Shown here piece by piece: positions 11,717 through 64,000 of a stretch of 64,000 nucleotides of DNA. Every line of letters begins with the position of its first letter. The stretch's first letter is position 1. This DNA comes from Panopea generosa (lineage: Eukaryota; Mollusca; Bivalvia; Adapedonta; Hiatellidae). The notes beneath the pieces were generated by a model. It had not been told where the DNA came from, searched no databases, and saw only the letters and a list, made by a program, of their open reading frames with translations. The stretch is from contig CM055896.1 of NCBI GenBank assembly GCA_029582155.1, forward strand, positions 31,060,609-31,124,608, in the 5' to 3' direction. The translations under genes and the position numbers were made by a program.

Positions 11717-11717
11717 A

Positions 11718-17547: not shown

Positions 17548-17559
17548 TAATTCTTTCTA

Positions 17560-17828: not shown

Positions 17829-17906
17829 TAAAATAATCTAGAAACATCAACCAAGTTTTAATGTCCTCCCTAACTTTTCAATAGGAATTCTGATCTTCAT
17901 TCCAAT

Positions 17907-20508: not shown

Positions 20509-20552
<44 letters not shown>

Positions 20553-27092: not shown

Positions 27093-27136
27093 TATAACAA
27101 TAATACCAGCCTATGTCTTGTGTACATTAATGGCTA

Positions 27137-28332: not shown

Positions 28333-28448
28333 TTACCTCCTTTTTTTACGTCTGTGTCTTAAAACCACGACAATGACAACAGCGGCAACAACAACTGCTG
28401 CAGCAGCGGACACACCACCGACAATGGCTGCTTGTGGAGACGACGACG
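28333..28448 (-). CDS. Transmembrane exon with basic tail, probable last exon
   Basis: After the acceptor tatctcccccag, the frame (phase 1) reads SSPQAAIVGGVSAAAA then VVVAAVVIVVVLRHRRKKRR and TAA. A single hydrophobic helix of about 22 residues is followed by a basic stop-transfer cluster, giving a type I membrane protein with a tail of about eight residues. The sequence aggag|gtaaat at the end is also a passable splice donor (exon end 28337), so splicing to another cytoplasmic exon is possible. AATAAA motifs just downstream favour termination here. No signalling motif is visible. Confidence 0.75.
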
Positions 28449-31400
28449 CTGGGGGAGATACAAAATATATCGTATATATATGTATTTTCCGTATAACGTG
28501 ATAAACTAATATATTTATATCGTACATTATTACGGATAAACGCTCGAAAAGACGAGCATTAAGGATCCAACCATGATGTGTTACAATATTATTGGGCATA
28601 AAACAAATATGACGGAAATCGGTAGCGTCGTGGAGTTACATGAACTCCAGTTTGTTAAGCAGAAAATCTACATTTATCGCAACAACAGCCAAATAAAGGT
28701 ATAATAATTCCACAAAATAAAATTGAAAAAATTTAGATACAATTTCCTTGTGAAATAGTTAAATAGTTTTAAGCTTTTTCAAACTCTATCCTTTTGTGTG
28801 TGCTTTACATTTGCTTTTTGTCTGTTTCTATTGAAAATGGACAATTTTTAAAGCTGAAAAATTAAAATCAGTGGTTAGTGTATGAAGTGCTTTTTGGCTC
28901 GGTTGATATTCAAATTGTCAACAGTGATTGAAAGATTGTAGTTAGGTGCATTACAACATATCTAATTTAGGTTCATATGCCAATTTTGTAAGTCCCCTGT
29001 ATAAGCCAAAAAATGTAATGCTCATCAAAATTATAAAAATCAAGTTTAGATTGTGTATTGGTACATGGTGGTTATGTATTAAGCTTAAACAAGTATTTGA
29101 AATGTATAGTATTACACATAGTTGTACCTTTAATACAAACATATCCAACAAATCCATCGGCACACCCAAGTAAACAGGTCCCTGTAACCTTTTCACAATT
29201 TGCAATTCCTCCCTCACAATTTCCACATGTTCCTAAGCAGCTGAAGCCGTAGGTACCGTCAGAACATTCTAAAGATCAGAATTTAAAAACACAAAGGTTT
29301 CAATGCGCACCATATTGTTGTCAATGGCTATACAATAAGTGTGTTGGTAGAGTATCAACCATTGCGACACTTTAGAAAGAAGTACCTTAAATCGGAGAAT
29401 CATTTTTCAATAGTTCAGTCACCACTGCTTGTTTTTGTTATAATTTTGCATTCTACTCTATTATTGTTTTAATACATTTAATTGTTTTTTTTTTTCTAAA
29501 AGTGTTTGCTATATGTAGTTTGAAAACAAAGTTAACTTCAACTTGCAAATAATTGAAATTCTAGGGAGGAGCGTGTGAGTTCATGCTCTCTAAATTGTAA
29601 ACAAATGTACAAGCATCTGTGTCTATACACTATCTGCATGCTTAAAACAGACGGTGGTCTATTCTTAGCATACCGTACGATAACTGACAGTTAAAGCATA
29701 CAGTTGTTTGTACATAAGCCACTCCTACACTACTGTCTATCCTGGCAGAAAATGTTGGGCCTTTAAATCATAAGATTACATACCATCAGTACAGTTGGAT
29801 TCATATTTGTACCCGGGTTGACATCCACCATCACAAATGCAAGAAAATATGTTACATTGATCGGTTAAACAATGGCCACATTCATTCCTGCAATTAACTC
29901 CCCATCTTCCATTGTTGCATGAAGAAATTTGATTAGATTATTAGATATACTGTTACTTTATCGGACAGTTTGATAATAAAATAGTATTGTCTTAGTGATA
30001 TTTAACATAATACACACATGCTACTTCCTGTTATAGATGAAAGGATGCAGGATTATTTTTTTCTAAAAATTACAATGGACAAAATCACGTTTTTTTTCCC
30101 CCCAGTATATCATGTTACATATATTTACAATGACATGCACATTGCACAAAGATAATATTAGCACATGCACAAATATTATCCTGAAAGAAATGTTACGAGC
30201 TTGGTGTAAAATTTCATTATAATCTCTTTTCTAACGAAATTTTCAACATATTTCATGTTATATGTGGCATAATAGGTTGTATTGGCTAGAGGCAGAAATC
30301 CAAATAGAACCACCGTTCTACTGTTAGTAACTGACACACTTTCATGTCGGCTGCTATGGATATTACGCAATATGAATTACGGTTATAGATGGTACGGTAC
30401 AACTAAAATCATGATAACTTTAACTTAGTATGACGAAATTGAATGAGATTTTGAATAGTGAAATGATCATCTTTTGTGGAGATGTATTTTTCAATAATTT
30501 CTGTATAAAATGTTCTGTATGATATATTTATCGATAACAAATGAATTCAAATATGAAATTAAGTGCATTGATTAGGTTGAAATATGGATAAAGCGTTTGT
30601 TTTAATCTTTGATCTCATTCGTTGCATAAAATATGCTTTATATTTTTGTCAGGTGAATTTGCAATTTGCGATAACGATATTTTCACACCTTTCAACAACA
30701 ATATTAAACTATTGACATTTATATTCCAGATTACCCCATGTCACGATGCGCACTGATTTTTGCGTGTGTCAATAATTAAAATAGGTGTTCATATTTCCAT
30801 GTTTGCTTTTAAATATATAGAAACTATTTGGATACTTAAATTAAGTATTTAGTAATGGTAATGCTACCCTAAATATATAATTATATGAACTTATAATAAA
30901 AAGATAATTTTCTGAAATGCTAACGGCAAACGTTGTCGTGATGGCAGTGTAATTAACCCGGAGAATGTAAACTTATACCTCACCCTCAAAATAAAAATAT
31001 GTAAATATTCCAACACAAAATAGATAGTAAACTACGCTTAACAAAATTGGTAAGTATCAAATTTTATTTTTTAATATGCTATTTATTACATATATATAGA
31101 CATGATTTTTTTTCAAAATATTATAACAGTCTTTAAACTCGTTTTCCATGGGGCGTATTTTTGCTGTGCTGTTTTTCCCTAAGCTACTTTTTGCGCAGTA
31201 TTAACAGGCGCACAGACAATCAATTTTCATGATGCAGAATTTCTGAGCAGAGTTTATATAGGTACAAGCGTGGAAATATACATGTATTTATTGTGTAGTG
31301 CCCATCAAAAGTGAATTTCCACGCATTGTACATGCAGACAAGTGTAGAAAAATCGCTTATATTGTCGACTTTTGTCCGTGCGGTTATTAGTCAGCGCAGA

Positions 31401-34400
31401 AATCTGCTCCATTGGAAACGAAAGTATGCTAGATAGTGTGAAACGAATTTTTACAAAAGCAGCGCCTGTTCTGCGCATAGAAACCCCTGCAATTTAGGCG
31501 CCGAATCCGTCAGAATACGCGCCACGGAAAAAGGCCTTTAAGCGGACTCTTTAGCACAGAAATATTGTCCATTGTTATTACGTTCACTTAAGCATAGACA
31601 ATTGTTAAAAAGTGCACGATGTGCACGTGCAGCAAATCCTCTTCGCTTTAAGTCTCACCACATAGAAAAAACATAAAATCTGTAGAAATTATGCGTCGGA
31701 TGACAATTGAAGAGCGTGAACAGCAGTCGGCATGCCACTTGCTGGCAGGCCTATTCTACAAGTGCCTATAACTGCCCTGTTTTGCTTATATTGTGCATCA
31801 TTTTTATTGATTTAACTTAGAAATCCACACATCTGTCAGCAAAAACCATTGCCAACGTTCTTGTCGTCGACATAATTGCTGGCGGCATCGTCGCGAGCCC
31901 CCAAATGATTTGTTATTAAAACCAGTAATATAATTTGACTGTTTTTTTTAATCTATAAATTTGGAAAGTTTTGCCTGCCCTATACACAGCTATTAGTTCA
32001 TCTCGAGACCAGCACTGTTATGGTACAGTTGAGGACAAAATAACCAATAACACCTTGTATAATTTAAGTATGATATCGTTGTTTAGATTTCTATAAAATA
32101 CAGCAATACAGTTCGTATCAAAAGTTATTATCAACTGTAACTTTTACCCCGAACCTTCAAATGCGGGCGCTTAAAGCTGCATCACTTTACTTTTTACATG
32201 CATCATTTCAGGTCTCCATTCAATTCAATAGAACCCACCGGACGATCTAATGTTTGTGGCAAAAATATCAGAATACTTGAAGTGTTGCTGATCTGCCTCG
32301 CCGACGAAAGTAACGCGTTATTAAGGGCAACCAGGATCACCACATTTTCCTGACACACCTGCGTAATCGACGAATGGCGGGGTTTGAAGTTTGTATAAAT
32401 CAAGGGGATAGTGTTTATAGGTATCGCTACATTTTGACTTTTGTTCTTTGTCCTATATAAAATAAAGTCTCGGATTTCCATGGTAAAACAATAATTCCAC
32501 ATAGAATTGTATTTTTTTTTCATAGAAGGAATGTCTACCCACATAAAAATGCAGAATAACTGGTAGGATGACCTTGCAGTGACACCCTGAGTTTTTTTTT
32601 TAAAATGAAGTCCTCAAATGCTCATAAATTCATGCATATGTTGAAATCCTATAAAAGTCACTTTTTTAACACCAGTGACGTCTTATTGCAGTATATGATA
32701 TGCCAACTTTTGCTCTACTCAACTGCAGCAAGAAATTACAACCACTGTGAACCATTTTGAAAATATTTCAAACCAAAGGTTTTTTTAAGCGTAAGAGTCA
32801 TGTTACCGTGGGAAAAAAGGGTCGTGACTGTGTAGTGAGACGTTAAGACACTGCCCGTCGGACACTTGGGACCCATTAACGACCGATAAACGCACAGAAT
32901 GTCCGGAATAGACCGAAGGCAGAGGGCTTGATACATCGAAAGCCCATCGTCGGCATTATCCTGACCGCTCTATACCGTCGGGACAGACTTCATTGAGCGA
33001 GGCGCCATCTGGTTTCAATCAGATAGGCTAACGTCTTTTTACAGACATGTGTAAAATCCTGATGAAACATAAACTTTAGTGCATTTTAATACATTTTGTT
33101 TTTACATACTTTATTTACTATATATATATCATATACTTAGATTTTGACGTACTTACCTTGGTTACACAGCACTCCCTTCCATCCCGCCTCACACAGCTGT
33201 TTACAAGTACCGTTGATTTTATTACAGCTACCGTATCCGCCTTTACAATTGTCGCTACAATTTTGACTGCAGTTATCACCGAACGTGCCGGACACACATT
33301 CTATAAAATAATATATGTGATAAATTAGAAATATATTACCAGAAATGGGCACCTTTTAATTTCTAATGAATTATGTTTATATGTTAGAAAATAATATCTT
33401 CAAAATAAACGTTTAATAAAACAACAAATACATCTTGGCAACTTTAAGCTATTCGCCTATAATTGAAAACAATTTGTTTGCATCAAAATAATACTTTAGT
33501 TTTGTAACTTTAGGGAGACCTATATTACATGTTTACAATTAATGAATATTACTAGCGATATTTAAATAGCCTGATATTATAGAAAGCATAATTCAGAAAA
33601 AAACATACCTTTAAAATATGTTATATATATGATTGTAATAGTATGTGTGTAGATGTGTGTATTATATAAAAACTATGTCAGTGCTCTAAATTATACTTGC
33701 AAAACTTTGTAAATGTTTGATGTGAATAAAAACACATTATTGACAAAAATAGTGAAAAACGGTATTGTTGTGTATTCAATATACTATATAATGTCGGTAA
33801 TAACTCATATTCGTCCGGGAATGTTAATTCATTGCCACCAATGTTTTTCATCAAATTGACTGCTGCTCGTCATTTAAATTACCAAAATATGCTGAATCTA
33901 TGTGACAAAATATGTCTTCAAAATATATGGAGCTCGTGCGCTCAAATCCGTTTTTCTTTTTGATAGAAGGTTTATGACTAAAAAAGTACCAAAAATACTT
34001 GCTGCATTGCAAGTTAGTATATACAGCTTTGACTAACAGTATATGAATTAAATGAGTTTATTCTAGCATTGTATACATGTGCTGTGTCAGTTTAAGCCTA
34101 TTTTACAATTAATTTACAACTCAAATTTGAAAATGCTGCCCGAAAAATTACTATTTAGTCGTGCCTGCCTTTGTCCATCTTTACGCTCGGCCACCCCTCT
34201 TAGTTACGCGGTCGCCCACGGTGAGCTTTTGATATTACGATAAAGTAGTTCGACATACAACACCTGCGTCGTCTAACAGTGTGCATCACGCTTTACCCCA
34301 CCATGATCTATGTACAGCGTTTCGGGTTGAAGGAATACATAATAACATATATTTTAAGTGTATTGAATAAAAATTTGTTTTGAGAATGCCCCAACCCCCG

Positions 34401-37400
34401 GCCCCGAAAATCGGCGTAATACATTTTCATTGACGTAGTCTTGTATATAAACATTCACGCCCAAAAGGTCTAATTAGACATTTACAGTGAGTAAATAGCG
34501 AGCGGTCAGAAAGTAGCAGTCAGTAAACTTAGAGAAGTAAACATATAGCAACATTCGAGAGAATCAGAAAGCGAAATCTGTGACTGTTTATTTGATGTAG
34601 TTAAATTGTTTGAAGTGTTTTCTCTGAAATGCTGAAGAGATATTTTTTCAAAGTATGTACCGAACTTTCATTTCAAAGAGAGTACGCGTTGAATAAATGT
34701 AGGTGTTTTTTGGGTGAGTTCAGATGATAATCTTTGTTACCTAAATTTTATTTGCAACTCGTTTGTATATGTGATTCATCTATTTCTGGATGATGTGCAT
34801 ATAGCGAGTCATGACATTAAGCTGATTGATAATACAATGAGATGTCGTTCTATGTGAACATGTAATACATTCTAAGTGGAACGCGTATTATGTGATGTCG
34901 TTGAATAATATACATTATATGTGGTACATGTATGACAAGTATAAGTCACGATGGAGACCTGGGTGATAACTGTTATAAAATGTCAGTTGTGAAGAGATGA
35001 AACAACCTCTGTGGTACTCTAAAATATGCAATGTCGGTAGTATTAGATATAAGTAATACTATACATTTCAACTGTGTAATACATACACTTACATACTTAG
35101 AAATGCAAAACTGAAAATGTATAAATTTGTTTAAAGCATCCGAAGTAAGATTTTATTATTATTACTGCAGATATAATAGTCAATTCCATACACAATATCT
35201 GGGTAAGTTTCATGGAATAATTCTTAACAATATTGTGTCTAAGAACAATTACATCACACTACCGAAATAAACTGTTTCACATATCAATATCTCGTACGAA
35301 TCATTTGCGTCTATGCAAGCAATGTATCGACGCCTTATCGATAATGTTGAAACGCCTCTATGGCATGCTTGCCCTATTATTGGAGACTAAGGCTTGACGC
35401 AACTGTGGTAGTGTACGAGGTAAGGTACACTTGCATGCACTCGGCGTCCATACGACGGCAATTTTCCTGCATTGATTGCTGGTGGCTGAAAGCGATCTCT
35501 TCGGTGTAGCATGCGGATTGCTGCACCCTGCCTACTGGTTGTAACAGGTGGTTGGTTCGGTCTTTATGACAGCCCAAATGATCAGACCTGCTTGGAGCAT
35601 ATCAATCGCTTTCGCTATCGTGCTGTTAATCAATGCTATTTCAAGTTTTAAATTATCAGCGAGTAGTTTATGTGTATAAACATATCGATATCTCGTGTTA
35701 CTCGAGTTCCATGTGCGAAACTTGGTAAAAGTATGTGCCATGTTAAAGGGCATTACACATCGTAAAAGTTATAATGGAAACGTACCATTGGTACATGTAA
35801 GCTTATCAACTAGAAATAATAAATAAATTATATAATTGCCTACTATTTTATTAATTAACAAATAAAAGTGTTTCGTTTCTAAAGTCCGTCAGTGTATACA
35901 TAAAGGGAGAGATACTTTATCGGGAAACCTATATGGTAATAGCTGATAAACTTTGAAGCTAGAGAACGCCACTGAGTGTAGTCTAGTGGATAATTACAGG
36001 GAACGCGTGATGTTTAGTTAGTATTCTGTAAAGGTCTGTGTTAATCCTATTTAACAATTAATTTACAAATAAAAATACCAACATTAACATCATTGCTGTT
36101 GATTTTATAATGATATTTAATGATAAATCAAAATACAGGTGTAAAATTCAACCACTATTACGAACAGAATTTTAGGGACATCTATATTATACTTTTACTA
36201 TTAATAAATATTACTAGCGATATGTTAATAGCCTTATATTATAGAAAGCATAATTCAGAAAAAACATACCTTGAAAAAATTATAAATAATATATGATTGT
36301 AATAGTATGTGTGTATATGTGTGTATTATATAAAAAAGTCAGTGTTGTAAATTATGCATTGTAAATGTTTGATGTGAATAAAAACATTATTGAGAAAAAA
36401 AAATACAAAGGGTATTGTTATGCATTCAATATACAATATAATATCGATAATAAATATGTTATGCATACACTTATAAGCGATAACTGTACATCCTTTCGTT
36501 CCGATTATCGTTAATTGATTTAATTGATTATCATTAATTCGTTAAGTTTGATGTTTATTGAATAACCGATACATTTGTAACGCTGTTTTCAACAAACGTG
36601 TGTTTTGGTTTGAAATTAAACATAAACATATGCCAGATAACAAAACTATCTCGGAATGCATGTATAATGGGTCATTTTCAAAACATGTAGAAAAACGTTA
36701 GTTATTTTATTTGCTGATAGAAAATACTACACCTAATGTTATTCTAATGCTTGGAACCAACTCTAACAAAAGAGAACTTTATAAACTTACACTTCTTATA
36801 GAATATATCGAAGGTCAAATAGGCATTATCCACCTAGTATGATACACACTATAATTAACATCCGTATGTAAGTTTTTTAATGACTTTATTGCGTATTACG
36901 CTATGTTCATGAAGTGACTTTTTTATTAATTACTGATTACATACTATTGAAACATAGCTTCATATATAGCCTCTATTCCATAAGCATGTATTTTTGGCTG
37001 ATTGTATTTGTTTTACACAAAGCACGTCACTCACATACACATTTACACACGACCAAAACATGACTTTTACTATATTTAAAGGTTTAAGATTTTCATTAAT
37101 CAACAATAATACTATTTCGCTAACTGATTTAACACTACTGATTCTGGTTAACAGTGTATTTTAGCGCGCATCATTTTGTAAATTTTATGAAAAACATAAA
37201 GTTAAACGTTAGACCAGTGAAACTAATCAAATATGACCAGACAATAAAAATGTATACTAAAGTAAATTAAAAGAACAACAGGACATGTTTTGAAGTTATG
37301 TTTGAAGCAGATTTTGTAAACAATGATACACGATGTCAAGCTAGAAGAAACTAAATTAGATAAACACGCTACAATTTTGTTAAAACAATAAATTATTTTT

Positions 37401-40400
37401 TAATTGATAAAACGCATCTCATTATCAACAATGAATAAAATGCGAATTGTTTAGTATGCCAAATCCACCAAAACGTGACAAAATTTAAATCTGAATTGGA
37501 GGTAATAACTTGAAACAAAATCCTCATTAAAAAAAAGCATCATTTAAAAACTGCTTGACGTTCTTCACACCATTATACTGACTCTTTCAAATACGAAACA
37601 ATGTTAATTTGTGTAAACCTGTGTAATAATTAATTAAATCACATGACACATTTAATGCATTTCAAAATATGTTGTAATTTTAAGCGGAAAATCTATTGAT
37701 GTCTAAGTTAGGCGCTTTGACAAAGTTAGGAAATCCCTTTTAAATATATTGCTTTGGCATGTTTAAATATTTGTCCTTAGGGCAATACGGGGTCTTTGAG
37801 TATTTGAAAATATTGTGTTTAGCCAATTTTAAAAGTTTTAAAAGTAAAATCCTGATAGAACATAGACTTTAGTGCATTTTAATATATCTCGTATTTACAC
37901 CCTTTAATAACTATATATATCATATAATTAGAGTTTGATACACCCACCTTGGTCACACAGCACTTCCTTCCATCCTGCCTCACACAATTGATCACAAGTA
38001 CCGTTGACTTTATTACAGTTACCGTATCCGCCTTTACAATGGTCGCTACAATTCTGACTGCAGTTATCACCAAAAGTGCCAGGCACACATTCTATAAAAT
38101 AATATAGTTGATAAATTAGAAATATATGGCCAGAAATGGGCACCTTTTAATTTCTAATAAATTATATTAAATTATAAAATAATATCTTTAAAATAAACGT
38201 TTAAAAAACAACCAAGACATCTTGGCAACTTTCATCTTCTGCGGCAACTTTCACTTTTTCACTTTCGATCCTCTTTGTTTCTTTTTTAAACATCTCTAAG
38301 ATATCCTCCTATAATTGTAAACAATTTGTTTGCATTAAATAAATAGTTTAGTTTCGTAACTTTAGGGACATCTATATTATACTTTTACTATTAATAAATA
38401 TTACTAGTGATATGTAAATAGCCTTATATTACAGAAAGCATAATTCATAAAAAACATACCTTAAAAAATTATATATAATATATGATTGTAATAGAATGTT
38501 TGTATATGTGTGTATTATATAAAAAAATCAGTGCTGTAAATTATACATTGTAAATGTTTGATGTGAATAAAAACATTATTGAGAAAAAAAATATAGAAAG
38601 GGTATTGTTATGCATTCAATATACAACATAATATCGGTAATAAATATGTTATGCATAGACTTATAAGCGATAACTGTACATCCTTTCGTTCCGATTATCG
38701 TTAATTGATTTAATTGATTATCATTAATTCGTTAAGTTTGATGTTTATTGAATAACCGATACATTTGTAACGCTGTTTTCAACAAACGTGTGTTTTGGTT
38801 TGAAATTAAACATAAACATATGCCAGATAACAAAACTATCTCGGAATGCATGTATAATGGGTCATTTTCAAAACATGTAGAAAAACGTTAGTTATTTTAT
38901 TTGCTGATAGAAAATATTACACCTAATGTTATTCTAATGCTTGGAACCAACTCTAACAAAAGAGAACTTTATAAACTTACACTTCTTATAGAATATATCG
39001 AAGGTCAAATAGGCATTATCCACCTAGTATGATACACACTATAATTAACATCCGTATGTAAGTTTTTTAATGACTTTATTGCGTATTACGCTATGTTCAT
39101 GAAGTGACTTTTTTATTAATTACTGATTACATACTATTGAAACATAGCTTCATATATAGCCTCTATTCCATAAGCATGTATTTTTGGCTGATTGTATTTG
39201 TTTTACACAAAGCACGTCACTCACATACACATTTACACACGACCAAAACATGACTTTTACTATATTTAAAGGTTTAAGATTTTCATTAATCAACAATAAT
39301 ACTATTTCGCTAACTGAGTTAACACTACTGATTCTGGTTAACAGTGTATTTTAGCGCGCATCATTTTGTAAATTTTATGAAAAACATAAAGTTAAACGTT
39401 AGACCAGTGAAACTAATCAAATATGACCAGACAATAAAAATGTATACTAAAGTAAATTAAAAGAACAACTTGACATGTGTTGAAGTTATGTTTGAAGCAG
39501 ATTTTGTAAACAATGATACACGATGTCAAGCTTGAAGGAACTAAATTAGATAAACACGCTACAATTTTCTTAAAACAATAAATTATTTTTAAATGAATAA
39601 AACGCATCTCATTATCAACAATGAATAAAATGCGAATTGTTTAGTATGCCAAATCCACCAAAACGTGACAAAATTGATATCTAAATTGGAGTTAATAACT
39701 TGAAACAAAATCCTCAATAAAAAAGGACATCACATAAAAACTGCTTGATGTTCTTCACACCATTATACTGACTCTTTCAAATACGAAACAATGTTAATTT
39801 GTGTAAACTTGTGTAATGATCAATTACACCACATGACACATTAAATACATTTCAAAATAAGATGCAATTTTAAGCGGAAAATATATTTAAGTCTAACTTA
39901 GGCGCTTTGACAAAGTTAGGAAATCCCTTTTAAATATATTACTTTGGCATGTTTAAATATTTGTCCTTAGAGCAATACGTGGTCTTTGCGTATTTGAAAA
40001 TATTGTGTTTAGCCAATTTTAAAAGTTTTAAAAGTAAAATCCTGATAGAACATAGACTTTAGTGCATTTTAATATATCTCGTATTTACACCCTTTAATAA
40101 CTATATATATCATATAATTAGAGTTTGATACACCCACCTTGGTCACACTGCACTTCCTTCCATCCCGCCTCACACAACTGATCACAAGTACCGTTGACTT
40201 TATTACAGTTATCGTATCCGCCTTTACAGTGGTCGCTACAATTCTGACTGCAGTTATCACCAAACGTGCCAGGCACACATTCTATAAAATAATATAGTTG
40301 ATAAATTAGAAATATATGGCCAGTAATGGGCACCTTTTAATTACTAATAAATTATATTAAATTATAAAATATATCTTTAAAATAAACGTTTAAAAAACAA

Positions 40401-46292: not shown

Positions 46293-46368
<76 letters not shown>

Positions 46369-55300: not shown

Positions 55301-58300
55301 CTCATACTCTGTTTACAGTGTACGTGCTACTTGGTTAGTTAAACATGTGTATGATTTTGTGTTGTTTTTAGGTTCCCATTTTCATACAATTAATGTTTGT
55401 GTTATAATACCAATGCATTAGATCACATATTTTATCATGTTATTGGGTGCATTATACATGACCCATTTATGCATAATTACTGTAGCGCTGTGTGGTTATA
55501 TAATTTATCTGTGGATTATTTCTAGAAGTCATAACTATTGTTAGTTATTTATTTCTGGTCATCTTTATTTGTGCACGCACATGACGTTCGCAACCCTGTG
55601 TTTAAATCAAATTATCACTTTATCTTGTCATGAATATTGATAATGAACAATTATTTCAAGCATTTCCCCCGTTTACTTTTGATCCCGTACTAGGAAACAG
55701 TTTATTTCTAGAAGTCATGATTTATTTTGTATTTTTTGTTTTTGTAATTTTCAATTTTGTACTCGCATGCCGTTCGAACCCCTGTGTTTGCTTATTGTTT
55801 CACCGCATACATTCCTGTTCACTGCCACTTTTGTTCACATGTTTTTGTGTCCAATGGTCACTCTTCATTAGAAATGATTACACGATATATCCTCATAGGT
55901 AATGGATGATTTAGGCCTTTGGAGAGCGACCACTGGATTTTATTATAACAGTAGACAGCGGACATCCAGATCATATACCTTTCACAAGTACCCACTTAAA
56001 CAGTTTCTAATAACATCGAAACGTATAATACATCGTTTAATAAGTGATATTCGTACCGTGAGTACTTTTATATTTTACAGTGTTTTTAACCTTCAATTTG
56101 CATTGATAAAAGTCTGTTTTTCTCTTAACTAACTCATTATATTTAGTTCATGTAAAATATGCAAATGATCGTATTTCAAAGAAGTATTTGCAAACTTCCA
56201 ACCTCCAAAACATATGTATGTCTTAAATATTGCGCTTTTTATTAATTTTATCTGGGGATATGGAACTTAATCCCGGGCCAAGTGAGAGTAACAATAAATG
56301 TTTTTCAATATTACATCAAAATATTCGTAGTATAAGAAACAAGCTTGACTATATCAAACATAATTTCTTAGATTTCGACATTTTATGTTTCACAGAAACA
56401 CACCTCTCGATAGATATCCATGACGATGATTTATTACTAGAAGGCTTAGATAAAATATATCGTAAAGACAAATCATGTCATTCGGGCGGGGTTTTAGTTT
56501 ATGTTTCATCCGATTTAAGTCCAACCAGAAATTTTGACTTAGAAAATATTGTTCCTGAATCTATTTGGATTGAAATTAAAGATCAAAGTCAATTTTATTT
56601 TATTTGCACTGTATACCGACCTCCACACTATCCAGTTGATTTTTAGAATAGAATTAACGTCTGTTTTGAAAAGGCTTCGGAAATACACTCAAATATAATA
56701 ATTTTAGGTGACATAAATGAGGATCAGTTAAATCCTTCTAATAAAAAATTTCGTAATAAACTTGAATTTAATAATATGTCTAATATAATAAAATAACCAA
56801 CGCGTGTAACTTATAATGCTCAAACATTGATAGATCCAATAGCACTTTCGAACCAGCTAACATGTTTTGACTCGGGTATTCACGAAACATCGGGTTTCCT
56901 TAGTGATCACTTTGGTACATATGTATTTATTAAAAGTGATATATATGAAAATATACTATTTAAAAGAACAGTTTGGAACTATAAGCGTGCTGATTTTAAA
57001 ATATTGAATAATTTAATTACCATTACAGACTGGTCATTTGTACTTGATGGATCTCTAGATGTTGCTACTAAGTCTTTTATTACAAAATTTATTGACTTAA
57101 CGAAATTATGTATTCCAACAAATCTTGTAACAATTCGTCCAAGAGACAAGCCGTGGTACAACTCCGAAATTAGACAAACATTCCGTAAGCGCGATAGGCA
57201 AAAACAATTAGCTCTCTGCACAGGAAAACAATCGGATTGGCAAGTTTTTAAACATTTAAGAAACAATGTAAATAACATGAAAAAAACACGCAAAATAAAC
57301 ATTTTTTAAAAATCTAGAATACTCATTGGGTGATATCAACTCAACAAATTCTAGCACTTATTAGAAAACAATCAAAATGTTAATTAAAGAAAAGTCTTAA
57401 AGTTGTTGCAGCATACCTCCTCTAATGAACAATGACAATTCGTATTCTGTGTCTGATGAAGATAAAGCCAATGCTTTAAACGATTTTTTTGTGTCAATTT
57501 CATAAATTAACGATTCTCATATCAATCTTCCAGCATTTTGGACGAAAACTAACAAAAACTTAACTGACGTCAAAATCACTGAAACGGAAATAACCGATAT
57601 TTTATTCAATTTAATTGTAAACAAATCCAGCGGACCCGATGAAATAAGCCACCGTGTGTTAAAAGAAACATGTAAAACTATTTGTCATTCACTTTGTATA
57701 TTATTCAATCGATCTTTGCAAGAAAGTAAATATCAAAATGCTTGGAAATTAGCAAATGTTATGCCATTATTCAAAAAAGGAACAAAAGACTCACCATCAA
57801 ACTACAGGCCAATTTCACTTATAAGTTGTGTAGGAAAGGTTATGGAACGTGTTATATTTAAACACATTCACAATTATTTACATGCGAACAAACTTATATA
57901 TAAAAAAAACAATCCGGTTTTTTACCTGGACATTCCACAGTTTACCAATTAATTGATATCTACAATCAAATTTGCAAAGCTTTTGATGATAAAAAATCTA
58001 CATGTATGGTGTTTTGTGATATTTCGAAGGCATTCGATCCTATCTGGCATAAAGGTTTAATTTTCGTTGATCACCATAAACATCTAGGAGTAACACTTAG
58101 TCACGACGGTACTTGGCACGAATACATTTCGAATATTGTATCTTCAGCATCCTAAGTACTCGGTTCGATGAGGATGATGAAATTCAGATTTAAACGCAAA
58201 ACCCTTAACCAAATATACATATCTTATCTTCGCTCTATCTTAGAATACTCATCCATAATTTGGGATAACTGTACTAAATACGAAACTGATACTTTGGAAA

Positions 58301-60980
58301 AAATTCAATATGAAGCGGCAGGAATTGTTACAGACCTAACGCGTTCTTTTTCAATTGAAAAAATACTAAATGAAATTGGTTGGGTTTCTTTGACAAACAG
58401 GAGGAAAATGCAAAAAATAATTTTATTTTATAAACAAAAACAAGACGGTTTACCAAGCTATTTGGAAGAACTGTTCCCTTTTACTTTATCCGAGTCAAAT
58501 CCGTACAATCTAAGAAACCATTCTGACTTTGTTACATTGACTAGGCGCACAGAAATATACTCAAGATCAGTTATTCCCTCATCATTGAAACTATGGAATG
58601 AACTTGGTATAAATATCCGAGAGTCTACATCACTCCTATCCTTAAAAAGCAAACTTAAAGATCTTTTTAAACCTCCAATAGTACCAAAGTTATTTTTATT
58701 CGGTGACCGATACCTATCAATTCAACACACTCGATTAAGAAATAATTGCAGTAATATAAACAACGACCTATATGTTAACCACTTAAGAAATATTCCCATT
58801 TGTGCCTGTGGTGATGAATTCGAAGATGCAGAACATTTTGTTTTTCGATGTGACCTTTTCAAAATTGAAAGACGGCAACTATTTACAAATACTCGTGAAT
58901 TCTACCCATTAAGTACCAATAAATTATTATACGGCAATGCAGATCTATCATTAGAGAATAATCAACTTATTTTTCAACATTTCCAGAAATATATTAAACA
59001 GACAAAACGTTTTCAACCTGAATACTTACTTTAATTAACTGGGTGCTGTCACTGTTGTAGCGTGAACAGTGTATGTGGTGCGGAGTGAGGATTCTATGGC
59101 GACTGGGCGGCATGGTATTGTTTTTGTTGTTTGTTTTCTCTCTTATTGATTTTTCTTTCTTTCAATATGGTTTTTGTTTTTGTACTAAGTTCCCTTTTCA
59201 TTTTTTTTCAACCCGGTAAACATATACATTCATACAGCCGCACTGGAGAGAACTGTAACTAATGTTGTTATAACTTGTAATTCAATCCATTTGCATATGT
59301 TATATATTTTGTTATAATTTAATGTTCATTTGTATATATTAATGTTATGTTATATACGTAATAAAATATGTTTAAACTAAATTATTCTCTTTGTTCCATA
59401 ATTTCTAATCGTTTCATTTTCATTTCTTCGATTTCTGATCTTTTCTCTATATATATATCTCACTGTGCTGCTTCTATAACCTTGTCTCTCAATCTAATTC
59501 CTCCTTATATTTCATTTCTTTCAATTATTTATCCTTCCTAGTTATCTTCTACATGTAGAAAGTCTCAGTCCTCTTTATGTCATATACTTTGCCATTTTAA
59601 TGTACACAAATTACATTACCATTTATTTGATATTTCATTCTTATTTTCTGACACAATCTTTATTAACATTTCAGTTCAACTAAATACATTTTATCTATCT
59701 GTTTGTTTTGTTGAATGACCACTGACGTCAATTTAGCTTCACTTCACTTTCAAATGTCAAATGTTTGTTATATATTGTATGTTATAGGATGAAATAAAAC
59801 AAAATTTAAAGCCATGTCGTAAATAGTGTTCTCTTCATTTGATATAAACAATTCATTAAGACAAGGAATTTGAGAGAAAAGAATCGCAATGGCGCTGATA
59901 TCCATAAACGTTATGTTATACCAGTTTATCACTTTTTGCGCAGATCGTCTGCTAAAATCAATATTTCATCTGCTAATCACTCTCGGGAATTGCCGGAAAT
60001 TAACGAGCGATACTAATCGATACTTTCGTAATATATCGACAGTGTCCGGTATTTTCATTTTATTTGATGGAACTCATATGAATTGCAAATACATTTATTT
60101 GAACTTGTTTATTAATTTCAGCGAGAAGGTAAACTATACAGACTTTCATTTTAGATGAAATGGTAACGTAAGTGTAATCAGCAAAAGTAAACAATCAATA
60201 TAGATCTATAACGTAAAAGATATAAGAAAAAAAAAGAAATGATAGAAAAACTTAGAGTATACCTTTATATTCTTATCAAGGGAATTTGAAAACTGACTTT
60301 TAACACGATTGATATCTTATTTCTATGGGAGGAACCAAAGTTATCCCCCCTAATTTATTTATAATTATCTATAAGGTGACGTTATGTTAAATACATTCTG
60401 CGATAAACACTAGGGTCATAAAACCTGGGGTGATCGATTATATTCACATTGCCACTGATGTGTGCAATATGCATACTTAAATAGCATTGCCACATGTTGT
60501 GAATGTTGGGAGGGGGATGAGGATACCGTATGTACCTATCTTGTTAATGGTTTACAATATGATTGCTAAAGATATGTTCTACCAGTTTTTGTAATTATCT
60601 AAAGCATATTGCTTTTTTTACAATCTATACATTTACATTACATGGTTTTTAACAATTTGGCCACTGTTTGTTTTTACCTAATTGTTTATATGTCTCTGGT
60701 TTGTGATATTTGGTGATATTATATTGCATTGTGGTTGAGATAATTTATAATTATGTTGAAAGTAGACAGTTGTAATTAACATTGAGATTGGAAATAGATA
60801 AAGTAATGGTGAAGATAACGCATTGATAATTGAATAATTAGTATGGATTTGAATTTCAGTTGAACCAATTGACCATGAATAAGAATACTGAAATGACTTT
60901 GAGAAAGCATTGCATGAAGAGTAATTAATTTGAAGTGAATTGATTACTGAATAACAGTCTATAACAAACCATTATACCAG

Positions 60981-61030
<50 letters not shown>

Positions 61031-63310
61031 TCAGATTAGATAAATAATACCCTTGACTTTATTATAAAGTAAAACTGTAAAACAAATAATTGTGTTTAGT
61101 ACACGATATGTATTACCTCCATAAACTCTAATATCACATATGACGAGTTGTGTAGAATTGCCATCTAGCGTGATCCTGACTTGATTGTTCAATAAAGGTT
61201 GGTTACACGTCACGTTGATTATATGATTAGGAGGATTCCAACCAGATTTAGCATAACATTTCTTTTGGTTGGTATAATTGTTTCTCCCCACGGCTTTCGT
61301 GGTTGCGCCTTCGACCGTTACAGTATAGCTTTTAAAATTATCTGAAAGCATAAAGTAGACTTGATTAATTTATTGTATTATGGATATTTATAAAAAAAGG
61401 GGAAAGCGTTAATATAAAAAAATACCGACATTGAAAAAATGAGTAATATAAAACCACAAGATTTTGGGAAACTTTTTTGACGAAAAAAGCAGGAGGACTA
61501 TGGGAATGTTACAAAGGAGGCGTTTTATAAGTATTTTTCTGAGTTATCGAATGATATTTCAACTGTTAAAATGCAGATGTTGGAGAATTCTGTTGTGGTA
61601 ATGACTTTAATGATTTGAAGTACAATTTTGATGTGTTGGACCAGGAAACAAGGATATCTGAGGTGTTGTCCGTGGTGAAAAGCCTGAAAGAAATAAAGCT
61701 TGTTCACGAGACTGTCTTTTAAGTGAATATTTCTTTGAAAGGTGGGTATCATTGCTTTGCACCTGACAGACATATTTAATGGTATTTTGAATTCTGGATA
61801 TTTCCCAGAAAGCTTGACTGGAGGTATTATTGTCCCTGTATTTAAAAAAATGACAAGGGCGATGTTAATAATTATAGAGGAATAACACAGGTAAGCTGTA
61901 TGTCTAAGATATTTACAGGTGTCCTTAACAAAACGTGTACATCTAAAAATATGTAAAAATTGGTTAGAAACAAAATCAACAACAGTTACTAGTAATGCAG
62001 GCGTGTATGAGGAACTTGGCCGATACCTTATGTATATATCAAGATATATCAGAATAGTAAGATATTTGAGTAAAGTTGTATCCTCAAACATATACTGATT
62101 TCTACTTTATATGAAGATTCATTGACAGATTGTGAGAAAGGATGTAACAATTGGACTAATAATATCAAAACAATGTTTAATGAGTTTGGTTTTAATCATG
62201 TTTGGAATGAGCCACATAGCAACAATCTAAATAATTGTACTGTCTAAATCAAACAAAGACTAATATATTGTTTTATACAGAAATGGCAACATGACATTGT
62301 AAATAACAGAGTTTTGGACATGTATAAAAACTTTAATATGTGTTCAGATATGAGATATACTTAGACATTATACCTTCTAAATTAAGACCATTTATGACTA
62401 AATTGCGGCTATTGGCACATACACTCAGAATTGAGTGCGTCTGTGCGTGTTGTCGTATGTGCGGGCTTGTGTGTGATAACTTTTCGCGTGTATATTGGAT
62501 TTATATACATGTATATGTTCTACGAGATACTATATGCATACGTCTAATAAAGTATATGTTCTGTTTTGTTCTGCTATTAATATTTTACTGACGACATTAT
62601 ATATTATTATATATTTCTTTAAGACAAATGTTGTTTCTAAAGGCACTTTTGTGGAAGTAAGACCATTATTATTAATCATTGCAATAAAGTGGAATAGAAT
62701 ACTAGGTGTTTTCACAATCTAAGAGTACTCTCTGAATAGAACTCGACAATAAACAACATTTTAATATCTTAATATTTCTCAAATCTGTGCTACACAATTA
62801 TCCAATTAAAAATTCTAATCAACACTTATAAGGCTTGAACTAGGCTCGTAACTGTTGATGATGTTTATGGTGAATACTTATGAATAGTTAAGAGTACGAT
62901 GACAGTTTTGCGAGTGTATTGATTATCAAAATTAAGTGTATTAATATCTTTACTATTTCATTGTTACAAATGATACAACAACTTTGAAAGACGCATTGAT
63001 GCTAAAAGTGTTAAAAAAAAAACCTATAAAAGAAATAAACATGCATCTGAAATGTGTTGAATTTGTTCTATTCTCGGAAGACAGCTTTAAAATAAGAATT
63101 TCATAATGTTACCTAACACTTTAGGGTCCGTGATAAGAACAAGTCCCGTGATGAGTTCTTTCTGGGGCAGCCAGAACCTCCACCACGGATTGTAAGTATA
63201 TGTAGATGTTCTGCTACATGTTGTCAGGTTACCGTCGGCGGCTCGTTCAGGATACTCCGGAGGGAAGATGTTATCTTTGTGATTAGAAATTTGCTTAAAT
63301 GCTACATCCC
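28333..63310 (-). CDS. FTP/F5-8C and EGF multidomain transmembrane receptor (5'-partial, multi-exon)
   Basis: This is the overall gene model assembled from the exons listed separately. In transcript order it has FTP domain 1 (63113-63310, 61117-61341), FTP domain 2 (48964-49167, 47524-47712), nine EGF-like exons (47216 to 29128) and a membrane exon with a stop at 28333. It gives about 2.2 kb of coding sequence, or 735 codons, without the signal peptide, which should lie to the right of the window. All boundaries are GT-AG in phase 1 except one damaged acceptor at 29922. FTP domains bind sugars in fucolectins and EGF repeats form stalks in scavenger-type receptors. A role in recognition at the cell surface is inferred. 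The 12-kb intron between the FTP domains leaves open that two genes are merged here. Confidence 0.65.
29128..29268 (-). CDS. EGF-like exon 9 (membrane-proximal)
   Basis: This is a 141-bp exon, phase 1-1, with acceptor tgatctttag and donor AAAG|GTACAA. It reads CSDGTYGFSCLGTCGNCEGG, then IANCEKVTGTCLLGCADGFV and GYVCIKG. The eight-cysteine MEGF/SREC spacing, with GTYG after the first cysteine, identifies an EGF/laminin-type module. It is distinct in sequence from the tandem-array exons and is the last extracellular module before the membrane exon. Confidence 0.85.
29784..29921 (-). CDS. EGF-like exon 8 with apparently lost splice acceptor
   Basis: The open frame reads CNNGRWGVNCRNECGHCLTD, then QCNIFSCICDGGCQPGYKYE and SNCTDG, with donor GATG|GTATGT. 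Length (138 bp with a CA start) and phase fit the other EGF exons. The acceptor position reads ttctt|CA instead of an AG dinucleotide, and no nearby AG restores the right phase. Either the exon is skipped, which leaves the frame intact because it is symmetric, or there is a sequence error. The body itself has no stop, so any loss is recent. Confidence 0.6.
29922..33156. other. Intron between EGF exons 7 and 8
   Basis: It contains a possible inverted-repeat element (31137-31538) and unrecognised ORFs (a 113-codon minus-strand frame at 32203-32544 and 64-66-codon frames). None shows a domain I know. Confidence 0.5.
31137..31538 (+). mobile_element. Possible MITE with imperfect inverted repeats
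   Basis: The left side reads ttttccatggggcgtatttt. The reverse complement of the right side reads ttttccgtggcgcgtattct, 16 of 20 matching. Both ends are flanked by ctttaa, consistent with a TTAA-type target duplication. The interior is GC-richer than the surroundings and non-coding. The element limits are approximate. Confidence 0.4.
33157..33300 (-). CDS. EGF-like exon 7 (array type, outlying copy)
   Basis: This is a 144-bp phase 1-1 exon, with acceptor tattttatag and donor CAAG|GTAAGT. It reads CVSGTFGDNCSQNCSDNCKG, then GYGSCNKINGTCKQLCEAGW and KGVLCNQG. It is closely related to the four tandem exons to the right but slightly more diverged (DNC for DHC, KINGTCK for KVNGTCD). Its donor GTAAGT is stronger than their GTGGGT. 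The adjoining intron is homologous to the array unit for only about 500 bp on the right. Confidence 0.9.
33811..36170. other. Spacer interrupting the EGF array
   Basis: About 2.36 kb has no counterpart in the other units. Near-identical short stretches (acaattaatttacaa with cctattt before it) occur near 34100 and 36050. A TATA-like tatataaacattcacgcc lies near 34445. Minus-strand ORFs at 35377-35753 (two overlapping frames) have no recognisable domain. No gene is called. Confidence 0.55.
37641..37835 (+). repeat. Intronic copy of the Harbinger-flank repeat, unit 1
   Basis: The stretch with catgacacatttaatgcat, aggcgctttgacaaagttag, ttggcatgtttaaatat and agccaatttt is a diverged copy of 521-725 and 16804-17010. 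The same stretch occurs once per unit, at about 39831-40025, 42018-42213 and 44209-44403. It was therefore in the ancestral unit before amplification. Confidence 0.75.
37948..38091 (-). CDS. EGF-like exon 6 (tandem array unit 1)
   Basis: This is a 144-bp phase 1-1 exon. It reads CVPGTFGDNCSQNCSDHCKG, then GYGNCNKVNGTCDQLCEAGW and KEVLCDQG. The acceptor is tattttatag and the donor CAAG|GTGGGTG. All cysteines of the MEGF-type module are kept. It lies in a 2.19-kb repeat unit whose intron is nearly the same as those of the next three units. Confidence 0.9.
39831..40025 (+). repeat. Intronic copy of the Harbinger-flank repeat, unit 2
   Basis: Homologous to 37641-37835 and, more distantly, to 521-725. 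Confidence 0.7.
40138..40281 (-). CDS. EGF-like exon 5 (tandem array unit 2)
   Basis: This is a 144-bp phase 1-1 exon with the same splice signals as the 37948 exon. Differences are GGYDNCN in place of GGYGNCN and KEVQCDQG in place of KEVLCDQG. No stop or frameshift is present. Confidence 0.9.
42018..42213 (+). repeat. Intronic copy of the Harbinger-flank repeat, unit 3
   Basis: Homologous to 37641-37835 and, more distantly, to 521-725. Confidence 0.7.
42326..42469 (-). CDS. EGF-like exon 4 (tandem array unit 3)
   Basis: This is a 144-bp phase 1-1 exon. It differs from its neighbours by GGYGSCNKVNG and GWKDVLCDQG. Splice sites are intact and all cysteines are kept. Confidence 0.9.
44209..44403 (+). 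repeat. Intronic copy of the Harbinger-flank repeat, unit 4
   Basis: Homologous to 37641-37835 and, more distantly, to 521-725. Here the last motif is changed to tgaatttt. Confidence 0.7.
44516..44659 (-). CDS. EGF-like exon 3 (tandem array unit 4)
   Basis: This is a 144-bp phase 1-1 exon, reading CVSGTFGDNCSQNCSDHCNG and ending WKEVLCDQG. It shares the CVSG start with the outlying exon at 33157 and has a unique HCNGG. Splice sites are intact. This is the rightmost exon of the array; unit homology continues to about 45770 and then stops. Confidence 0.9.
45933..46140 (-). repeat. tRNA-derived SINE (best copy of its family)
   Basis: On the minus strand agaggttgcgggttcaatcc is a good B box. 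It is followed by a body with ctctgtactggttctaccaa and ggtagcggacttggggg. The A box was not clearly identified. Related fragments lie at 4090-4205 and 26150-26275. The element sits in the intron right of the EGF array, just beyond the end of unit homology. Confidence 0.6.
46295..46368 (+). repeat. Compound AT/GT microsatellite
   Basis: An AT run to about 46348 changes into GT repeats up to about 46368. It lies in the intron after EGF exon 2, about 70 nt from the splice donor. Confidence 0.95.
46440..46574 (-). CDS. EGF-like exon 2
   Basis: This is a 135-bp phase 1-1 exon. It reads CSKGSYGMNCENNCSENCQD, then KNNCNTTSGKCDCKPGWRAE and LCDQG. The acceptor is tttttttaag and the donor CAAG|GTAATA. 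It ends LCDQG like the array exons but retains a CDC pair (KCDCKPGW) where they have CDQLCEAGW. A long AT/GT microsatellite begins about 70 nt into the following intron. Confidence 0.85.
47216..47356 (-). CDS. EGF-like exon 1
   Basis: This is a 141-bp phase 1-1 exon right after FTP domain 2, separated by a 167-bp intron. It reads CTAGRWGPGCDFICGHCLGG, then IPCSGQTGHCPKGCEDGFKD and LPTCETG. The acceptor is acctctatag and the donor ACGG|GTATTT. Its GRWG and CGHC match the exon at 29784, so these two form a second EGF subtype within the stalk. Confidence 0.85.
47524..47712 (-). CDS. FTP domain 2, second-half exon
   Basis: This is a 189-bp phase 1-1 exon, with acceptor cttatttcag and donor GGTG|GTATGT. 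It reads GLSNFLLHANNDSSDEWVTI, later PPTRNITVLIQARYLRLYST and NLIICEVQVFG. RYLRLY and ICEVQVFG are the closing strands of the F5/8C fold in the fucolectin group. It completes the domain begun at 48964-49167. Together they give 131 codons, somewhat short of the usual size of about 145. Confidence 0.85.
48964..49167 (-). CDS. FTP domain 2, first-half exon
   Basis: This is a 204-bp phase 1-1 exon, with acceptor taaatttaag and donor CCTG|GTAAGT. It reads KNLAFGRQANLSTYNGPSHN, then AGLTVDGVIGTSVDECSATQ and VQDQPWWSVDLKHIMRIQSI. NLAxG at the start, AVDG-like TVDG, and PWWSVDL are the hallmark motifs of FTP/F5-8C domains. Where fucolectins commonly have a CTHT-type motif before PWW, this one has CSAT. 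Sugar binding is therefore not assured. Confidence 0.9.
50157..50262 (-). repeat. tRNA-derived SINE head
   Basis: The minus strand reads gtttcggtggtcttaaaacc and, after cgtcagtctcgcatg, ggtcgtggattcgatcccc, a strong B box. The tRNA-like region resembles a Ser/Leu-type tRNA with a damaged A box. A presumed body extends left to about 50070. Confidence 0.6.
50396..50660 (+). repeat. SINE-like repeat with AAATA tail
   Basis: The head carries agggttcgtgtgttcgaaaa, a diverged B box. The body has gtcgcccgttagctctacat and ends in aaaataaatacacaatcgat. The structure suggests a tRNA-derived SINE, but the A box was not found. Confidence 0.45.
51035..51595 (-). pseudogene. Family-B DNA polymerase relic, Maverick/Polinton type, C-terminal part
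   Basis: The minus strand reads DFHYNYILKKYEKYKVQLL, then FTNTESLCYEIKTED at the place of polymerase motif C. The family has a D-T-D core there; this copy has N-T-E (51503-51517), so both catalytic aspartates are gone. It continues with NITKDIGKMKDETAGIPITE, then CVGLRHN, ITKGVIKKNITHEDYRHVLF and, after a frameshift, CFDNKRYILDNGVKTVAYG, the usual C-terminal end. In-frame stops occur near 51480, 51320 and 51195. Protein-primed polymerases of this kind replicate Maverick/Polinton elements. The rest of such an element was not found. Confidence 0.75.
52380..53199 (-). pseudogene. Unrecognised charged ORF relic, left part
   Basis: The minus strand gives long, lysine- and glutamate-rich pieces in changing frames: SLVHVMSEINTELLETRCYK, VSIIDNSIENKALINCNQIE, FTRELKWLELKLKEADEYSY, KQRVNDEIEERHTDSYSIDR and RRIKMLKEHKHMEDLLEKQR. 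Stops and frameshifts show decay. Composition suggests a coiled-coil protein, but I recognise no family. It lies upstream of the polymerase relic in the same orientation and may belong to the same element. The LINE at 53212 interrupts it. Confidence 0.45.
53404..54296 (+). pseudogene. LINE ORF1 (coiled coil plus RRM-like)
   Basis: A start at MPNRRRKLNKSSPGQKP leads, after a stop, to an acidic Ser-rich segment (QTDSHSDSEDSVYFESLDFS). A coiled coil follows (TLKVEISTLKSANHCLKTEL). Then comes LDELEQYGRRMCVDVSGIPG, the typical entry to the RRM-like domain of LINE ORF1 proteins, and KVIIKFTNSKARQRVYEARK. A TGA at 54156-54158, probably from CGA, precedes the C-terminal domain (FTTTWVAGCTIYALF). ORF1 proteins bind LINE RNA. 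A frameshift near 53690 also breaks the frame. Confidence 0.8.
54297..55901. other. Inter-ORF region of the LINE
   Basis: No gene is seen between ORF1 and ORF2. A loose direct repeat is present: tttctagaagtcat with cgttcg and cctgtgttt occurs at about 55522-55600 and again at 55707-55790. At 1.6 kb the spacer is long for a CR1-type element. Confidence 0.5.
55902..59034 (+). pseudogene. LINE ORF2: 2A-like leader, endonuclease, reverse transcriptase (broken)
   Basis: The likely N-terminal leader is open at 55902-56132 (WRATTGFYYNSRQRTSRSYT), then a frameshift region leads to a 2A-like motif (56236-56280). The endonuclease follows with FSILHQNIRSIRNKLDYI, CFTETHLS, CTVYRPP, ILGDIN and LSDHFGTYVF. 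A linker has RPRDKPWYNSEIR. The reverse transcriptase shows ANVMPLFKKGTKDSPSNYRP, ISLISCVGKVMERVI and FCDISKAFDPIWHKGLI. It then jumps in frame to VDHHKHLGVTLSHDGTWHEY, skipping the YADD catalytic motif. The C-terminal part is open for 288 codons (58168-59034) and ends with a CACGDEFEDAEHFVFRC zinc-binding-like motif. Stops near 56645, 56795 and 57308 are additional damage. Confidence 0.85.
56236..56280 (+). other. 2A-like ribosome-skipping motif before the LINE endonuclease
   Basis: The frame reads FLLILSGDMELNPGP. The 2A consensus is D-(V/I)-E-x-N-P-G-P preceded by a hydrophobic stretch; here Met replaces Val/Ile. 2A-like sequences are known in CR1-type LINEs of marine invertebrates. In such elements 2A would separate an N-terminal leader from the endonuclease-reverse transcriptase or act as a signal peptide. 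Activity of the Met variant is unknown. Confidence 0.8.
59393..59560 (-). pseudogene. Unrecognised charged ORF relic, right part
   Basis: Beyond the LINE the minus strand reads RLRDKVIEAAQ, a stop, and EKRSEIEEMKMKRLEIMEQR. Composition resembles the left part (52380-53199). Reading across the LINE as if it were absent keeps the frame, so the LINE probably split one already degraded ORF. Confidence 0.4.
59561..61030. other. Right part of the long intron, with a GA microsatellite at its end
   Basis: No gene is recognised. An open frame of 89 codons at 59889-60158 has no domain. The stretch ends with the GA run at 60984-61026, less than 100 bp from FTP exon 61117. Confidence 0.5.
60984..61026 (+). 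repeat. GA dinucleotide microsatellite
   Basis: A pure AG/GA run of about 43 bp in the intron just left of the FTP exon at 61117-61341. On the gene's own strand it is a CT tract located downstream of that exon's donor. Confidence 0.95.
61117..61341 (-). CDS. FTP domain 1, second-half exon
   Basis: This is a 225-bp phase 1-1 exon, with acceptor tgctttcag and donor GGAG|GTAATA. It reads NFKSYTVTVEGATTKAVGRN, later KKCYAKSGWNPPNHIINVTC and TQLVICDIRVYG. The VICDIRVYG end is the F5/8C closing motif. It completes the domain begun at 63113-63310 (141 codons together, normal for the family). The next matching exon downstream is about 12 kb away, across LINE insertions. Confidence 0.85.
61470..62480 (+). 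pseudogene. Second LINE fragment, ORF2 with internal deletion
   Basis: Plus-strand pieces are EDYGNVTKEAFYKYFSELSN, LDQETRISEVLSVVKSLK, DIFNGILNSGYFPESLTGGI and NNYRGITQVSCMSKIFTGVL, the pre-palm and early reverse transcriptase region. Then comes CNNWTNNIKTMFNEFGFNHV, VWNEPHSNN, QRLIYCFIQKWQHDIVNN and LRLLAHTLRIECV, the C-terminal region of LINEs with a short-spaced tail. The catalytic palm is missing and several frames are used. The family differs from the LINE at 53212. It sits in the intron between the two halves of FTP domain 1. Confidence 0.7.
62481..63112. other. Intron between the two halves of FTP domain 1
   Basis: AT-rich, no gene seen. ORFs of 61-83 codons show no domain. Confidence 0.5.
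63113..63310 (-). CDS. FTP domain 1, first-half exon
   Basis: This is a 198-bp phase 1-1 exon, with acceptor ctctgtgattcag and donor TTAG|GTAACA. It reads GDVAFKQISNHKDNIFPPEY, then PERAADGNLTTCSRTSTYTY and NPWWRFWLPQKELITGLVLI. ADGN, CSRT and NPWW are the expected landmarks; the arrangement WRFWLPQ differs from the usual WRVDL. The signal peptide exon must lie beyond the right edge. A broken relative occurs at 23738-23908. Confidence 0.85.
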
Positions 63311-64000
63311 CTGAATCACAGAGAAACAATATTAAAATGTATTCAGAAACAAAAACATTACGAATGCACCGAAACAAGAAAAATACAGCAAGAGCATTAA
63401 ATATCGTATTTCTACGTCATTTATCTATGTCTATGAAGTAAATCCTTTCAAATAAACCAACGTTGATGGTATTTCATGAAAGCGAAAGGATATATATGTA
63501 CATTCCCTTAATCCCAATTATTTACACAATGACATTATGTTTTATAGGTGGCCTGATGAATTAAAAATGTCGTATATCTGATTGTTCCTTAGTACAAGTA
63601 AACATCGAATTACATTTCCCTTCCGTAGGTTTCATTGTTTATGGGGAAGATAGTAATTGTTTATGTTTAGATGCAATATATTAACAACTGTAAAGAGTTG
63701 AGGGACTGGACAAGCATGACCGATAGACAGAGAAATGAATATATGAGAACATGATATCCTCACTCCCTCCCCCAAAGGATTAATGCAAAATAGCAATGAA
63801 AGTATTGTTTTATAGTTGTAAACATTCATGTTTCAGCACTTTGAAACACTTTTGATACTTATTTACTGAATGGTATTTACTCCGATGTCGTCTGCATTTA
63901 GCATGAGACTGGTGTGGTAATTCATGAAAGACACGCTAACCTTGACCCATTTTCTCAAAACAGTAACAGTTATGATACAAAAGCACATCACTTTATCGCG
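63311..64000. other. Intron upstream of the first visible receptor exon
   Basis: No exon with a phase-1 donor or a signal peptide was recognised on the minus strand in this stretch. The start of the receptor gene should therefore lie beyond the window. Confidence 0.5.

Follow-up and report, generated by a model that had tools for sequence, protein, structure and literature searches.

A predicted mollusc FTP-EGF receptor gene in Panopea generosa, with an apparently recent tandem array of EGF exons

The engulfment receptors MEGF10, Draper and CED-1 combine an ectodomain of EGF repeats with a single transmembrane (TM) helix and a tail containing tyrosine and an NPxY motif, which is joined by an ITAM in MEGF10 and Draper. 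Both Draper and CED-1 are described as having an EMI domain, and CED-1 as having a single YxxL (PMC8092387). A second group of described proteins, the F-type lectins or fucolectins, includes FBP32 and oyster bindin; their published fucose motif is HX24RXDX4(R/K) (PMC5712786). As regards gene structure, phase-1 symmetry is presented in PMC8001218 as a general rule for the shuffled extracellular modules of animals, and symmetric modules of length 3n as being well suited to exon skipping. Here we describe a locus in the bivalve Panopea generosa at which FTP domains, EGF modules and a TM helix appear to be encoded by one gene.

The window, meaning the whole 64,000 nt stretch of DNA analysed, contains 15 open exons on the minus strand between 63310 and 27395, of which four code for FTP halves, nine for EGF modules, one for the TM helix and one for the tail. 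They are listed below in order of transcription, together with the longest intron, phases being given as acceptor/donor. E values are the best per exon in tblastn comparisons of the exon regions with 84 homologous proteins as queries (identified by P numbers).

63113-63310, minus strand: FTP1a, first half of FTP1; acceptor AG, donor GT, phase 1/1; E 3.7e-6 to P0013
61117-61341, minus strand: FTP1b, second half of FTP1; phase 1/1; E 5e-10 to P0002
49168-61116, minus strand: intron between FTP1 and FTP2, 11,949 bp, phase 1
48964-49167, minus strand: FTP2a, first half of FTP2; phase 1/1; E 5e-6 to P0003
47524-47712, minus strand: FTP2b, second half of FTP2; phase 1/1; weak match, E 0.016, with FTP2 as a whole above the Pfam cut-off
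47216-47356, minus strand: EGF1; phase 1/1; E 6e-10
46440-46574, minus strand: EGF2; phase 1/1; E 1e-11
44516-44659, minus strand: EGF3, in the array; phase 1/1; E 2.7e-14
42326-42469, minus strand: EGF4, in the array; phase 1/1; E 1.6e-14
40138-40281, minus strand: EGF5, in the array; phase 1/1; E 1.4e-13
37948-38091, minus strand: EGF6, in the array; phase 1/1; E 2.7e-14
33157-33300, minus strand: EGF7; phase 1/1; E 6e-14
29784-29921, minus strand: EGF8; open frame, boundary acceptor without AG; E 5e-10
29128-29268, minus strand: EGF9; phase 1/1; E 1e-10
28337-28448, minus strand: TM exon; phase 1/2; identified by hydropathy; E 0.011
27395-27569, minus strand: likely cytoplasmic-tail exon, then stop; identified by its open frame and phase-2 acceptor alone

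The support from tblastn is uneven, with all EGF exons at 6e-10 or better and FTP2b and the TM exon being the weakest; the tail exon has no minus-strand match to any of the 84 homologues. A partial protein was spliced from these exons, with the EGF8 frame included, and has its TM helix at residues 706-726. It matches PF22633 with an E value of 1.3e-15; taken separately, FTP2 scores 43.9 bits, above the Pfam cut-off of 27.8, whilst FTP1 falls narrowly under it at 26.1 bits (E 1.3e-5). No Pfam EGF model matched the EGF modules in the search of the spliced protein; they do match the EGF region of Tie2 (2gy5) with an E value of 1.2e-13, and a regular expression counts eight modules of eight cysteines, missing EGF8, which has nine. 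FTP-type domains, at least three eight-cysteine EGF modules and a TM helix, the features by which we delimit a working group of mollusc FTP-EGF-TM receptors, are all present, and the gene appears to be a new representative of the mollusc FTP-EGF receptors already seen in databases.

These exons bear out a preliminary description of the locus as two FTP domains, nine EGF frames and one TM helix on a single strand. The range it gave, 28333 to 63310, holds for those exons but is incomplete, as the tail exon (27569-27395) lies outside it and the 5' end of the gene was not located within the window. Related proteins have an EGF module ahead of FTP1, and neither this nor a signal peptide was found in 63311-64000; hence the 5' end very likely lies beyond the window edge. 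A signal-peptide exon at 63829 looked plausible by eye, but was rejected: a donor-pattern script found no donor there, and the sole donor-like GT near its end, read by eye, is in phase 0.

All 14 donors are GT, and 14 of the 15 acceptors have AG at the module boundary (13 in phase 1 and one in phase 2), EGF8 being the exception. Phase 1 holds for 13 of the 15 acceptors and for all donors but one, the TM-to-tail junction being in phase 2. The claim that the gene is built only of phase-1 symmetric exons therefore goes too far, failing at that junction and at EGF8. Each FTP domain is interrupted by an internal phase-1 intron, such that a single FTP exon is symmetric, yet less than a whole module. 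Phase symmetry had also been said to suit a diversifying receptor; considered alone, it does not point to diversification, since it is the rule that PMC8001218 gives for shuffled extracellular modules. Better evidence for the gain of modules is a recent tandem array, and for their loss the missing acceptor of EGF8.

The array, which the preliminary description did not mention, was revealed by self-BLAST as approximately 4.4 head-to-tail units of around 2,189 bp at 36168-45774. The units are 94.5-95.1% identical and each carries one EGF exon, these being EGF3 to EGF6. Hence the stalk seems to have been lengthened recently, through tandem duplication of an exon-plus-intron unit. Site patterns that divide the copies two against two favour the pairs EGF3/EGF4 and EGF5/EGF6, with 12 sites as opposed to five and two. 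EGF7 differs from EGF3-6 by 7.6-10.4% in the exon and 11.7-13.6% in the aligned flank, and appears to be an older relative of the array exons. Pairwise divergence between the units is 3.2-5.9% in the intron and 3.5-4.9% in the exon; counting gap-free columns only, the four copies differ from one another at 11 of 144 sites in the exon and at 185 of 2,023 in the intron (Fisher p = 0.65). Seven of the 11 variable exon sites are third codon positions (p = 0.039). This variation fits mild conservation and not diversification, any selection on the new copies appearing to be mild at most.

It is possible, though we put it forward only tentatively, that the array is a live, copy-number-variable stalk, with individuals differing in their number of 2.19 kb units or in the splicing of the near-identical exons. 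A single gene would then give rise to receptors differing in reach. Four or more EGF modules are present in 71 homologues, a count that leaves out the window protein and draws on gene predictions which may have errors of their own. In eight of the 71, at least three modules form a cluster at an identity of 80% or above; were the stalk variable, these would make it a recurrent habit of the family.

The symmetric exons and the recent array might also be taken to favour the earlier proposal of a diversifying recognition receptor, the modules of which are varied by alternative splicing, and there is a precedent in oyster bindin, an F-type lectin for which PMC5712786 describes diversification through splicing, recombination and positive selection. 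Nevertheless, it is the stalk EGF that is repeated, rather than the binding FTP domain, and the array exons change no more than their introns; this proposal therefore seems unlikely.

EGF8 (29921-29784) is directly preceded by TT where the other modules have their boundary AG. Of six AGs in its vicinity just two, at 29990 and 29897, are in phase 1. From 29990 the reading passes through stops; the AG at 29897 is inside the EGF8 exon and follows a purine-rich stretch, and entry there would remove the first of the nine cysteines, leaving the eight found in the sister modules. Probably EGF8 has lost its acceptor and is skipped in frame, which is feasible because its flanking introns are in phase 1; entry at 29897, or an assembly error, may instead be the explanation. 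The missing AG could conceivably be the first sign of decay in a pseudogene or outgoing allele, a reading that the ninth cysteine would also fit. This too is improbable, given that all 15 frames are open, that the acceptors at 14 of 15 positions and all 14 donors are intact, that variable sites in the array exons are concentrated at third positions and that skipping of EGF8 preserves the frame. Within one gene there would thus be both a gain, in the form of the exon-plus-intron array, and a probable loss, in the form of the missing acceptor, both tolerated because the introns are in phase 1. Hence the locus may offer a DNA-level anatomy of stalk-length change in a large family of mollusc receptors.

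The ligand-binding properties of the FTP pair can be considered by comparison with the lectin FBP32, which is matched by both FTP2 (E 5e-9) and FTP1 (E 3e-6); the other PDB matches of FTP1, ranked behind FBP32, are antibody chains and were taken as noise. The fucose motif is absent from both FTP1 and FTP2 under a strict and a relaxed pattern, in a test run without a true fucolectin as positive control. The strict pattern matches three of the 84 homologues, all of them without FTP-type Pfam domains, and 33 fit the relaxed pattern; therefore the lack of the motif is not peculiar to this gene. Opposite the histidine of CTHT in the FBP32 alignments, which we read as that of the fucose motif, FTP2 has alanine and FTP1 arginine. 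The cation motif h2DGx is fitted by AADGN in FTP1, but not by TVDGV in FTP2, and some lectin-like binding may persist given the FTP1 motif. 'Fucolectin' is consequently used here as a label for a fold, without implying sugar specificity.

The preliminary description knew of no named gene with this exact architecture; judged by the homologues, the architecture is not an unusual one. Domain families for all 84 were transcribed by hand from precomputed lists that miss some domains, and the following counts, the first three of which were made by hand, are hence lower bounds. An FTP-type Pfam domain is present in at least 40, a protein tyrosine phosphatase (PTP) domain in at least 28 and a kinase in at least four. 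FTP with three or more EGF modules and neither PTP nor kinase is found in at least 18, all 18 from molluscs by source name and 14 of them with a TM helix; at least 17 more add a PTP to FTP and three or more EGF modules. The architecture is therefore common among predicted mollusc proteins, where it goes by the names MEGF10/11-like or, with the phosphatase, receptor-type PTP. Clams share the order EGF-FTP-FTP-EGFn with a land snail and a sea slug, and the named matches, both of the protein and of a retroelement in the window, are mostly from molluscs, including the clams Mactra, Ruditapes, Dreissena, Mercenaria and Mya. A separate search with residues 1-272, left out of these counts, failed to recover the double-FTP clam proteins; its four matches comprise two from vertebrates and two without a name. 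No title in our survey of paper titles, which is no proof of absence, names a mollusc receptor of FTP-FTP-EGF-TM type.

The frequency of phosphatase-bearing homologues, and in particular the identical ectodomain order of Ruditapes P0012, would be compatible with the gene itself encoding a receptor-type tyrosine phosphatase, with catalytic exons farther downstream and a tail exon that is wrong or skipped. This is quite improbable: tblastn gave the window no credible match to a PTP, and across the downstream 27 kb the sole minus-strand matches of a PTP homologue are pieces of P0039 (residues 872-902), at E values of 0.13-0.65 and within a TAG repeat array at 12.5-14.3 kb. Furthermore, the tail exon ends in a stop after 58 codons.

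The preliminary description placed the FTP and EGF exons in a single gene, despite the 11,949 bp intron that separates FTP1 from FTP2, the next longest being 4,647 bp. Alignments show FTP1 directly followed by FTP2, as here, in five relatives, namely Mactra P0002, two Ruditapes proteins (P0003 and P0012), Bradybaena P0025 and Elysia P0028, although Pfam detects a single FTP-type stretch in P0025 and P0028, their FTP1 being recognised by alignment only. Because of this adjacency in five relatives and the matching phases, a single FTP-EGF-TM gene is most likely, as that description supposed; against it, EGF modules follow FTP1 directly, without FTP2, in Mya P0013, a partial record that begins at FTP1. 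Two genes split at this intron, FTP1 in one and FTP2-EGF-TM in the other, would account for P0013 and for what is by far the longest intron, yet are very improbable in view of the five relatives, the matching phase-1 donor and acceptor and the opposite-strand retrotransposon remains that partly explain the intron's length. These remains, of a non-LTR element, lie on the plus strand at 56227-59034. The ORF at 58156-59031 has 71 matches, 16 of which are annotated RVT_1; of its two named matches, one, at 55% identity over 66%, is from Mercenaria, and the other, at 76% over 15%, is from Mya. Upstream of it, Pfam gives two weak matches under the cut-off, one resembling an endonuclease (E 0.0022) and one an RT (E 0.0044).

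The reading we favour, and consider probable though by no means assured, is of a single-pass cell-surface receptor of the mollusc FTP-EGF (MEGF10/11-like) kind, with binding by FTP domains, reach provided by EGF modules, signalling through the tail and recent growth of the stalk; receptor function is inferred from the sequence. The FTP pair at the tip would bind a ligand, probably not via the classical fucose triad, with the EGF stalk setting the reach. Clustering by the ligand could then engage SH2 adaptors through the tail tyrosines, which lie in a single YxxL and a single YxN, making this an engulfment- or adhesion-type recognition receptor with adaptor signalling. The recent tandem duplication would have lengthened the stalk with the frame preserved by phase-1 introns, the same property allowing EGF8, its boundary acceptor lost, to drop out in frame. 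A motif scan found neither NPxY nor ITAM in the inferred tail. Among the 24 homologues with a TM helix and a tail of 15-250 residues, YxxPhi is present in 18 tails, barely over the 13.2 expected by chance; this enrichment was too weak to be used as an argument and was dropped.

The window contains other repeats. Positions 1-11717 and 16333-23507 form a direct duplication in four pieces, 90-94% identical, the left copy having approximately 4.6 kb (roughly 1217-5837) that is absent from the right. Related 21 bp minisatellites lie in each copy, at 243-453 and 16599-16738. Pfam searches of ten ORFs in the left part, and of two more there, returned nothing at the thresholds applied. The TAG trinucleotide array occupies 1.8 kb (12520-14298), with around 586 units matching at 70% and a strong GC skew; matches of EGF-rich homologues here (best E 2.5e-7, filter off) were rejected as low-complexity noise. 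Just beyond the tail exon, at 26872-27364, are two tandem copies of a 272 bp unit with a B-box-like GGGTTCGAATCCC; by eye it looks like a tRNA-derived SINE, whilst ARAGORN and Rfam returned nothing for it. There is no Rfam match at gathering cut-offs and no tRNA gene.

In comparison with known systems, the F-type lectins share jelly-roll homology with the FTP domains, FTP1 having the cation motif; unlike them, the window protein is predicted to be membrane-bound on an EGF stalk, neither FTP domain has the fucose motif and the array repeats EGF exons, not lectin exons. MEGF10, Draper and CED-1 are alike in their EGF-repeat ectodomain, single TM helix and tail tyrosine, and the single YxxL of CED-1 resembles that of the inferred tail. 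However, that tail has neither their NPxY nor the ITAM of MEGF10 and Draper, and where Draper and CED-1 have an EMI domain, the visible part here has an FTP pair and no Pfam EMI match, the N-terminus lying outside the model. The mollusc FTP-EGF receptor-type tyrosine phosphatases Ruditapes P0012 and Haliotis P0011 have a similar FTP and EGF ectodomain, with the same two-FTP order in P0012, but carry the PTP that tblastn did not find in the window. Closest are the mollusc MEGF10/11-like or unnamed FTP-EGF-TM proteins P0003, P0025 and P0028, and P0002, which is without a predicted TM helix: all share FTP1-FTP2-EGFn, and in the first three a TM helix is followed by a short tail with neither PTP nor kinase. 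The best matches of this kind are approximately 30-36% identical overall to the window protein and differ in having an extra EGF module ahead of FTP1, for which no counterpart was found in the window, whilst relative to all four proteins the EGF array is specific to the gene described here.
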